Assembly: GCA_019119395.1 (NCBI GenBank)
Contig: DWXC01000015.1
Location: 1-61,727 of the forward strand
Length of the DNA: 61,727 bases
Origin: Candidatus Borkfalkia stercoripullorum
GTDB taxonomy: Bacteria > Bacillota > Clostridia > Christensenellales > Borkfalkiaceae
Direction of reading: 5' to 3'
This document shows, one piece after another, positions 1 through 61,727 of the stretch. Within the stretch, counting starts at the first letter, position 1. The number at the start of each line of letters is the position of its first letter. A program made the translations under genes and the position numbers. Below the pieces are notes generated by a model that was not told the DNA's origin, searched no databases, and saw only the letters and a list, made by a program, of their open reading frames with translations.

Positions 1-359
1 GCAAACGGCTCTGCGCCCGGTTTTCTCTCTGCGGCGATATGTTACGGCTCTCATATTATAAAATCGCCGCATTCACGTTTTCCGCTGAGGCCGCAGGTAT
101 GCGGCAAATTGAGTGCGCTTTTTGAAAAGCGTGGTTTTCAAACGCGCCTTAAATTATTAAAATGATAATGCGAAAAAGCAAAAACGACGCTTTTTGCTTT
201 TTCACTCAATTTGCCAATGCCTTGGCTTACGGAAAGGGTGAATTTGCGGCACTACATATTTTATGTGCCCTTAAAAGTGCCGCAAAGAGGGGAAGCCGTT
301 CGGGTTTCCCCTCGGATCACGGAAAACCGCAGGCGTCAGCACGCCGAGGTTTTCGTGAA
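1..359. repeat. Structured modular intergenic repeat, copy A (cut by window edge)
   Basis: This stretch has no convincing gene and is built of nested hairpins shared with the repeats at 40163, 41126 and 52362. A forward core module (71-155) has a CCGC/GCGG hairpin (91-94/101-104) and a TTGAAAA/TTTTCAA hairpin (122-128/135-141, loop GCGTGG). A second core lies in reverse orientation, with a perfect 13-bp stem (172-184/191-203) and a GCCAA/TTGGC hairpin (213-217/222-226). The right end (316-359) is the same ACGAAAACC/GGTTTTCGTG-type arm that ends the copy at 52665. An open frame across it is not a credible extension of the ligase gene downstream. Confidence 0.8.
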
Positions 360-40162: not shown

Positions 40163-40523
40163 TTCACACTTTTCTCGTGCAAAGGCACTGCGAATGGCGC
40201 CGCCGATTTTGCGAAGCGACCGCTCGCGGGCATTTATGCAAAATCGGCTAAGCCGATGCGACAACTTTGTTGTCGCTAAAGTCGTGATTTTTAGGGAAAC
40301 CCCAACGTTCGCCGTTTTAACAAACGGCTCAGCGTTCGGATTTTTCCTCTTCGGCGCTTTATAAGGGCTTGCACTAATATAGATGCGCCGAATTCACCTT
40401 TCCTGCTCGAGGCCGCGCGCCGCGGCAAATTGAGTGCGCTTTTTGAAAAGCGTGGTTTTCAAACGCGCCTTTGATTGTTTGAATTCACAAAAATGATTTG
40501 TCAGCACAAATCATTTTTGTGAA
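40163..40523 (+). repeat. Structured modular intergenic repeat, copy B
   Basis: This copy starts TTCACACTTTTCTCGTGC and ends TTTTTGTGAA. It contains the GTGC-AAAG-GCAC hairpin interrupted by an extra nested insert (about 40190-40275), an AACGTTCGCCGTTTT module, a CCGC/GCGG hairpin (about 40413-40425) and a TTGAAAA/TTTTCAA stem (40443-40449/40456-40462, loop GCGTGG). A perfect AAAATGATTTG/CAAATCATTTT stem near the right end closes it. It is inverted relative to copy C. Confidence 0.85.
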
Positions 40524-40599: not shown

Positions 40600-40824
40600 A
40601 TGAAAAGATCCGAGCATTCGCAAAAAGAGGATAACCGGCAGGACGAGCGCAATGGTTTTTATAAGAAAGAGAAGATATTCGGTTTTATTCTCTGCATCCT
40701 GTTTTTGCTGATCGGCGGTATTCTGTTCTACAGAGAATATATTTCGGAAAGTGCCTTATCGGGGCAGGCTGACCGTGCAGAGTATACTGTGTTCTGCGAG
40801 ACTGACGAGGAGGAAACACAATGA
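40600..40824 (+). CDS. Small single-pass membrane protein
   Basis: The 74-residue protein has a highly charged start (MKRSEHSQKEDNRQDERNG), one transmembrane helix (about residues 25-45, IFGFILCILFLLIGGILFY) and a short outer part ending DEEETQ. GAGGAGGG precedes ATG 40600. Its stop overlaps the next start (ATGA). With its partner gene it is boxed by inverted repeats B and C. Family not recognised. Confidence 0.65.
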   Translation: MKRSEHSQKEDNRQDERNGFYKKEKIFGFILCILFLLIGGILFYREYISESALSGQADRAEYTVFCETDEEETQ

Positions 40825-41123
40825 AAGTGTCAGATGTTCTTCTGTTTTTGCTGATGCTGATCGTTGCTGCGGCGGGTACGGTAATTATCATATCCGAAGG
40901 GGAGATAGCGTATGGAATCGGCTACGGGATCGTGATGTTTATTTCTATTCTGTGTGCTGCGTTCAGCCGCACGTTCACCGTTTTCTTTGAGTCTTTTAAT
41001 CCTTATAAATTTAAGGATGAATCGAAAAATACGCTTAAAAGCCGTCTTAGTGGCACTAAAATCGCGGCGTGGTTCGTTTTTACGATCGGCGGGATCTTTG
41101 CCATTGTCGTAATCTTGATATGA
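40821..41123 (+). CDS. Small membrane protein, partner of the previous gene
   Basis: The 100-residue protein has three likely transmembrane helices (about residues 5-22, 28-48 and 78-98), and a basic cytosolic loop with KFKDESKNTLKSRLSG. GAGGAGG lies before its ATG inside the previous gene. Composition is AT-richer than the flanking core genes. Nothing in it identifies a family. The two-gene arrangement inside inverted repeats suggests a cassette that moved as one piece. Confidence 0.65.
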   Translation: MKVSDVLLFLLMLIVAAAGTVIIISEGEIAYGIGYGIVMFISILCAAFSRTFTVFFESFNPYKFKDESKNTLKSRLSGTKIAAWFVFTIGGIFAIVVILI

Positions 41124-41125
41124 TG

Positions 41126-41774
41126 CTCGCCAAAACCGCGCGATTGTGTATTGTGCGTGCCCTGAAATATCGAGCGGCAAGGGGAAAACCGCATGGGTTT
41201 CCCCTCAAAATCACGAAAAAAAAGTTTTATCTGCTTAAAACTTTTTTTGTGAATCCCAATAATTTAAGGCGCGTTCCGAAATCGCTATTTTGGATAAGCG
41301 CACTCAATTTGCCGCATGCTTGCGGTCTCAACAGGTGAATGCGGCGCGCATGTTATGGCGTGCCCTCAAAAGCGCGCCGCAGAGGGCAGAGCCCTCAAAT
41401 CATTTTTCGTGAACCAAAATAATTTACTTGCGTTTCCGAAAATCGCACTTTTCGGAAAAAGCCCCCGATTTGCCGCGACGCGCGGCCTCGGGCAGGAAAG
41501 GTGAATTCGGCGCATGCGTAATAGTGTAAGCCCTATTTATAGGGCTCCCAAAAATCGCAACGTGCGCAGCGGTGTGAGATTTTTGGGAATAAGGAGCGGC
41601 AAATATATAAGAGCATAGCATTTGCAAGTATTGTAAATGCTTGCATAATATATTTTGCCGCAACGTGCCGAAGAGGAAAAATCCGAACGCAGAGCCGTTT
41701 GTAAAACGGCGAACGTTGGGGTTTTCCTAAAACTCACGACTTTCCGCAGTGCCTTTGCACGAGGAAAGTGTGAA
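41126..41774 (-). repeat. Structured modular intergenic repeat, copy C (two core modules)
   Basis: Read on the minus strand it starts TTCACACTTTCCTCGTGC, like copies B and D. It holds two core modules: one with CCGAAAA/TTTTCGG (41436-41442/41449-41455) and one with CCGAAAT/ATTTTGG (41276-41282/41287-41293). It also has a GGGGAAAACC/GGGTTTCCCC hairpin (about 41199-41204/41211-41216 core) and an AT-rich hairpin AGCATTTGCAA/TTGTAAATGCT (about 41617-41641). A weak plus-strand promoter, TTGCAA (41622-41627) and TAATAT (41646-41651), may drive yhbY. Confidence 0.85.
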
Positions 41775-52361: not shown

Positions 52362-52665
52362 TTCACACTTTCCTCGTGCAAAGGCACTGCGGAAAGTCGT
52401 GATTTTGAGAGACAACCGCCGTTCGCCGACGCGCGGGTCGGCTCTGCGGCGTTTTTCTCTCTGCGAAAATATTTAAGGGCTTACATATTAAAGCAATTTT
52501 CGCATTCACTCTTTTTCGACAAGCCGCTCATCGCGGCAAATCGGGGGCTTATTCCGAAAAGTGCGATTTTCGGAAACGCAAGTGAATTATTTGGGTTCAC
52601 GAAAAATGATTTGTGCTGTTTGGCTCACGAAAACCGCAGGCGCCTCACGTCGAGGTTTTCGTGAA
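52362..52665 (+). repeat. Structured modular intergenic repeat, copy D (most complete)
   Basis: The element runs from TTCACACTTTCC to GGTTTTCGTGAA. Module 1 is the ACTTTCC/GGAAAGT stem around GTGC-AAAG-GCAC. Module 2 is GAGAGA/TCTCTC around a CCGCC/GGCGG hairpin, then TGCGAAAAT/ATTTTCGCA. Module 3 (52505-52586) is bounded by TTCAC/GTGAA, holding a GCCGC/GCGGC hairpin and CCGAAAA/TTTTCGG (52554-52560/52567-52573). Module 4 is the CACGAAAACC/GGTTTTCGTG stem. Confidence 0.88.
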
Positions 52666-61669: not shown

Positions 61670-61727
61670 TTCACGAAAAAAGGTTCTCGCATTTCTCGCC
61701 GAGCTGTCGGCTGCGAAATGCCGAGAG
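61670..61727 (+). repeat. Structured modular intergenic repeat, copy E (start only)
   Basis: Four nt after pfkA, TTCACGAAAAAAGG opens a hairpin-rich sequence: CTCGCATTTC is opposed by GAAATGCCGAG around CCGAGC/GTCGG. It begins like module 4 of copy D and runs off the window. Confidence 0.55.

Follow-up and report, generated by a model that had tools for sequence, protein, structure and literature searches.

Borkfalkia genomes carry many shuffled, hairpin-rich repeats in their intergenic spaces, and these form a real family, larger than the first-pass annotation reported, with strong covariation in its stems. The window analysed here, 61,727 bases long, is a whole contig (C34, 1-61727) of a genome of 1.87 Mb in 39 contigs, 92% complete (G000); the five loci sharing modules that had been listed in it are all present where they had been placed (copies A to E, Table 1), with A and E cut off at the first and the last contig base, respectively. 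Comparison across copies and genomes has established a unit of five hairpins, its build-up in tandem or tail to tail, and stems that are exchangeable on conserved loops with near-pure Watson-Crick covariation; it has also established filled and empty states of orthologous sites, turnover of modules and one inversion in place. We postulate that non-autonomous mosaic palindromic DNA elements entered the intergenic spaces of Borkfalkia and were reshuffled there, a reading that we hold with about as much confidence as doubt.

Many copies compared side by side have their five hairpins in the fixed order TTCAC-H1-H2-H3-TTCAC-core (in detail TTCAC, H1, GTGA, H2, H3, TTCAC and core), the core consisting of one inner and one terminal hairpin joined by AAAT, with runs of A and T around the apex of the latter; this bears out the modular layout with TTCAC/GTGAA borders that was described from the window. 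The loop of H1 is of GCTGA type or its apex of AAAG type, H3 has a conserved loop of the form AGGGC(A/T)(C/T)nC, and the foot in the copies compared is TTCAC/GTGAA or a paired variant, e.g. TTCTC/GAGA. Extra hairpins may be found inside H1 (copy B) or between H2 and H3 (copy C), and chimeric H1 arms were observed. Units stand alone, in tandem (copy C, L025) or tail to tail (copy A, L013, L030), both orientations being present within one element; the tail-to-tail arrangement implies that a full element begins and ends with H1, and such TTCAC-H1 ends, inversely oriented at both sides of full elements, are terminal inverted repeats of the MITE type. Among 60 H1 copies classed by loop orientation (of 209 with the H1 pattern, 149 being unclassed), 59 faced one way and 1 the other, a ratio among related copies and hence no count of independent events. 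The one-way loops of H1, together with the conserved loop motifs, suggest that something reads the folded form.

Within the window, the core stems TTGAAAA/TTTTCAA of A and B and CCGAAAA/TTTTCGG of C and D are present as first described, as is the change from CCGC/GCGG to CCAA/TTGG in a neighbouring hairpin. The second core of C (CCGAAAT/ATTTTGG) does not qualify as a compensatory case, its third pair being a G.T mismatch (A.C on the other strand). The reverse core of A does have its 13-bp stem, but this is an alternative version that the same core hairpin takes recurrently, not, as had been claimed, a wholly different stem. By Pfam assignment of the gene neighbours, copy A lies before the D-Ala-D-Ala ligase gene, B and C between obg and yhbY, D between a PAP2 gene and formate-THF ligase, and E after phosphofructokinase.

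Table 1. Copies of the hairpin family in the window and their component hairpins
Feature	Positions	Strand	Description
Copy A	1..359	+	forward H3 and core, then reverse core, reverse H3, H2 and H1 (tail-to-tail); cut by contig start
H3 of A	30..71	+	stem TGCGGCGAT/ATCGCCGCA around conserved loop; TTCAC next, at 72
Terminal hairpin, reverse core of A	172..203	-	13-bp stem, 172-184 with 191-203
Reverse H3 of A	243..286	-	
Reverse H2 of A	287..313	-	
Reverse H1 of A	316..359	-	GTGAA at end
Copy B	40163..40523	+	H1 with inserted hairpins, H2, H3, core, closing hairpin
Extra hairpin in H1 apex of B	40202..40248	+	
H3 of B	40350..40392	+	TTCGGCGC/GCGCCGAA
Closing hairpin of B	40484..40523	+	perfect 18-bp stem, TTCAC..GTGAA
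Copy C	41126..41774	-	tandem units on minus strand, last one truncated at low end
Module Cx of C	41551..41670	-	extra hairpins inserted between H2 and H3
Copy D	52362..52665	+	complete forward unit, then truncated H1, then reverse H1
H3 of D	52462..52504	+	TGCGAAAAT/ATTTTCGCA
Core terminal hairpin of D	52552..52575	+	TTCCGAAAA/TTTTCGGAA
Reverse H1 of D	52625..52664	-	11-bp foot
Copy E	61670..61727	+	element start with H1-type hairpins; cut by contig end

Covariation in H3 is strong. Candidate units were chosen by loop motif, TTCAC and core, pairing being no criterion, and 82 of the 91 had at least 7 of 9 H3 arm bases in Watson-Crick pairs; 34 distinct stems surround the one conserved loop, and their pairs comprise 297 Watson-Crick, 2 G-T, 1 A-C and 6 other. 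In an earlier set of 84 units, 75 were paired at 7 or more of the 9 bases and 60 at all 9, and in a control with the 3' arms dealt to other units the shares were 21% and 4.6%, respectively; an earlier H3 count from a loose selection that included genic chance hits had given 249 Watson-Crick, 3 G-T, 7 A-C and 29 other pairs. The counts are 43 Watson-Crick, 0 G-T, 1 A-C and 1 other pair over 9 stems of the inner core hairpin, and 226 Watson-Crick, 2 G-T, 6 A-C and 8 other over 35 distinct inner stems of H1; the core terminal hairpin is less clean (24 stems; 119 Watson-Crick, 3 G-T, 1 A-C, 21 other).

On alignment A1, which holds 44 of 47 non-redundant units (dropped were two chance hits in genes and a unit whose H3 carries an insert), RNAalifold found only 8 pairs and none in H3, a miss due to stems of differing length lying out of register. 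For H3 we have therefore used a fixed-register alignment (A2) of 26 of 83 windows, its rows being those among the 57 windows with a motif spacing of 28 that carry C at column 1 but not at column 2 (the end of H2); this choice was blind to pairing, and the search model R1, the source of some loci, holds no H3 pairs. In A2, 93.7% of the 286 cells pair, 10 of the 11 pairs are changed on both sides (65 cells doubly changed) and 0 cells hold a standard pair changed on one side. The covariation score was 0.656 vs. 0.171 +/- 0.025 in 500 shuffles, none of which was as high, with slid partners reaching at most 0.165, both controls leaving relatedness in; RNAalifold recovered the H3 helix from A2 unaided, with 10/10 pairs covarying. 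Within a stem class the H3 arms differ pairwise by 0 to 5%, and the loops by 8 to 49% (partly misalignment); the near-invariant arms indicate that stems behave as discrete alleles, some of which differ by a single swapped pair. The paired changes are thus real and strong on a larger alignment, as first claimed, but selection on a fold, the conclusion drawn from them, is only one reading, as template switching between hairpin arms can give the same pattern: PMC8794818 describes how DNA template switching between arms can produce compensatory changes and keep stems perfect.

The family extends through most of the genus and little beyond it. With copy D as a DNA query, matches were found in 9 of 21 genomes, with 51 places in G000; a model of H3 and core built from A1 (R1) matched 37 of 40 genus genomes, with 73 places in G000, at least 88 in each of five others and no match in G002, G005 and G033. 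With stricter filters, which weak relatives may escape, 6 of 151 genomes sampled from the order were matched, all of the same family (3 weakly, E about 1e-4), as were 3 of 391 sampled from the class, again all within the same taxonomic family; lone units in other genera of the family keep the same order of hairpins (L188, L183, L189). Rfam gave 0 matches at gathering score in the window and in 7 loci, in agreement with the first-pass annotation, and an Rfam family was dropped as an explanation. A 436-base element had no match among plasmids or phages of two annotated collections, and two exact core patterns, representing two core variants only, had none in viral contigs; carriage by phage or plasmid was likewise dropped. 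Our literature search, which covered largely open-access work, found no published description of this hairpin family. At least 14 of the 78 contig ends of G000 lie within 600 bases of a family match, with copy E at a further end, which indicates that the repeats break the assembly.

Presence of the element at orthologous loci was judged by eye. At locus D the element is found in G000, G008 and G012 with differing modules; among 15 relatives compared there (of 36 others with a flank match), G012 has it and the other 14 have none. Between obg and yhbY, where the obg genes of Candidatus Borkfalkia avistercoris, faecipullorum, faecigallinarum and excrementavium are 84-96% identical to the G000 copy, 35 of the 50 loci found were compared: an element is present in 8, in some of them cut short by a contig end, and a fragment in 3; 23 are empty, and the remaining locus breaks off too soon to tell. 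In G011 this gap consists of no more than a short ribosome-binding stretch, and in G000 it holds two elements separated by two small ORFs. These ORFs (window 40600-41123) overlap, look membrane-like and belong to no Pfam family, the second having no match in 39 other genus genomes nor in plasmids; they may be cargo of the two flanking elements. Before ddl, 4 of 14 relatives have the element, 2 a divergent one and 8 none. Among 15 fabG-fabF loci (G000 included), 10 hold full, partial or divergent elements, G034 decayed remnants and 4 none, and among 17 rpsL-rpsG loci, 8 hold an element (only a remnant in G008), 2 a single hairpin and 7 none. At both of these gaps the right ends look common by descent and the inner modules differ, pointing to old insertions remodelled in place. 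At one locus the element lies in opposite orientation in G012 vs. G008 with identical outer junctions, i.e. it was inverted in place. By eye, no target-site duplication was seen at filled and empty sites, the flanks of which have diverged. Many element sites are old and common by descent, which we have counted against present mobility.

Other sequences were met in the same gaps. In the rpsL-rpsG gap, L211 (G003) and L216 (G006) have only one hairpin, whose TTCAC/GTGAA lies close to the apex; it is what is left of an element or else an element in its simplest form. Another repeat, with ACATTCTACATT-type runs, is present in L125 (obg-yhbY of G031), in tandem, and in L204 (fabG-fabF of G001), and by eye is unrelated to the hairpin elements. 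In L201 (G027), a gene of about 570 bases lies between fabG and fabF, where relatives have a hairpin element.

The first-pass annotation had named RNA or DNA as the folded form, and the evidence now leans toward DNA. A structured RNA, i.e. elements that form part of operon transcripts and are selected at the RNA level, e.g. for mRNA stability or for regulation, would accord with the covarying stems, the conserved loops and the position of the elements: 17 of 26 classed clusters lie between codirectional genes, 7 between convergent and 2 between divergent ones, by a crude ORF rule that left 13 of the 41 clusters without an ORF on both sides and 2 at ends and that wrongly put copy C, which yhbY follows, as convergent. 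Median distances from the outer element end were 19 bases to a start codon (21 cases) and 9 to a stop codon (31 cases), so that elements fill operon gaps nearly flush. Selection at the RNA level should, however, tolerate G-U on the transcribed strand, and G-U was found in 0 of 268 paired H3 cells of A2, compared with 33 of 525 cells (6%; 16 sequences) in a putative RNA leader from the rpsL-rpsG gap of the same genomes; its absence in H3 favours a cause at the DNA level. For units folded as RNA the G-U share was 5% in unit orientation, 6% for the complement and 13% for random windows, only 23 of 95 units folded more stably in unit orientation, and all hairpins of 104 windows in unit orientation had 13 G-T vs. 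30 A-C. Against this lean, A1 has 15 G-U among 352 cells, all in two pairs of the core terminal hairpin and partly an effect of register, as shifting row L004 by one column yields Watson-Crick pairs; the covarying pairs expected of a structured RNA are thus accompanied by some G-U tolerance in that hairpin and none in H3. Given also that both orientations occur within one element and that Rfam has no match, we disfavour an RNA as quite improbable, and on balance the data favour folded DNA rather than RNA as the cause of the hairpin covariation. The leader itself, a conserved fold CCTACTTGTCGG..GTAGGCAGTATGCCGCAAGGCAGAAGGTTCGCTAC..CCCTTAC before rpsG in 16 sequences (L210, L209, L205 and 13 other loci) for which Rfam gave nothing in either L022 or L210, is possibly a ribosomal-protein leader RNA not yet described.

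Several known systems share part of this design. Double-hairpin elements of fungal mitochondrial DNA are mobile hairpins with compensatory stem changes, as here, but have two hairpins and are mitochondrial; integron attC sites are folded single-strand DNA sites with free stems and few fixed positions, standing in arrays, a likeness by analogy only, as the Borkfalkia arrays compared are free of gene cassettes. BOX elements of Streptococcus pneumoniae, described in PMC3049150, are likewise composites of modules in variable number, intergenic, folded, in many copies and slow to insert; compared by that description only, they differ in that boxA, boxB and boxC have fixed roles, whereas Borkfalkia elements have reverse units and exchangeable stems. 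Closest are the BIMEs, which PMC2817692 describes as intergenic mosaics of palindromes in alternating orientation whose complementarity is kept while sequence changes. The alternating orientation, mosaic inter-palindrome parts and intergenic position of REP/BIMEs with RAYT are all found in Borkfalkia. The Borkfalkia elements work like BIMEs but fail on two defining points, the GTAG foot and the Y1 transposase; the foot here is TTCAC/GTGAA, and the five-hairpin unit and the conserved loops are further differences.

Our search for a mobiliser covered the Y1_Tnp (PF01797) and RVT_1 families and found none. Y1_Tnp had no match in G000; matches were present in G008 and G011, with a fragment below cut-off in G012, and over 13 genus genomes the Y1 and element counts ran opposite (Spearman -0.81, p 0.0007, uncorrected for kinship), so that the Y1 transposase was rejected as the mobiliser. 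Reverse transcriptases, found in only 4 of 40 genomes (G005, G023, G040 and G047, with 0, 16, 6 and 28 element matches), were rejected on that ground. Multi-copy genes are, however, frequently absent from assemblies of this kind. One could still argue for REP/BIMEs proper, spread by a REP-associated tyrosine transposase that was lost or is missing from incomplete assemblies, given the BIME traits and the Y1 matches in a few relatives; the lack of a Y1_Tnp match in G000, the opposite counts, the foot and the five hairpins per unit make this very doubtful to us. That neither family yielded a mobiliser is also consistent with there being no dedicated enzyme, in which case palindromes would lengthen, flip and exchange arms through template switching, slippage and homologous recombination, and spread mainly by recombination between loci and species. 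Template switching as a source of compensatory changes, the chimeric H1 arms and the left and right element ends recombined between species at fabG-fabF all fit such a scheme, but some source of insertion is needed to explain gains at sites where relatives lack the element, and one order of the unit is kept across genera. In addition, template switching should invert loops as well, yet the loops keep their sequence and H1 loops face one way, as if read by something. We thus consider an enzyme-free origin unlikely.

In the reading that we prefer, that of non-autonomous mosaic DNA elements, the DNA of the elements would act in folded single-stranded form or as cruciforms, with a protein reading the conserved loops (GCTGA of H1, AGGGCnnnC of H3) and the TTCAC foot. 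New copies would be made by a trans-acting transposase or recombinase, our candidate for this step, and dispersed copies would swap modules by recombination; the arms may be kept complementary by one being copied from the other during replication (template switching), aided by selection for a form that the protein can read. A tentative and rather unlikely elaboration is that the elements amount to an undescribed type of mobile DNA, the five hairpins making up a single-strand DNA 'key' in which stems are exchangeable alleles and loops and foot are read by a non-Y1 transposase or recombinase, with in-place inversion and module exchange belonging to its regular cycle. Perhaps the strand beyond the second TTCAC can pair alternatively with the 5' arm of H2 (35 of 2000 shuffles were as good, over 14 stem classes), in which case the unit would have a two-state fold.

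With many stem alleles in one genus and almost no intermediates, these elements offer a natural test of how hairpin arms stay complementary, and filled, empty and inverted states can be compared at the same sites. They also carry a warning that strong covariation alone is no proof of RNA, as the G-U counts here point to DNA. Across a large uncultured gut genus, the elements occupy the gaps of housekeeping operons, at obg-yhbY, rpsL-rpsG and fabG-fabF and before ddl.
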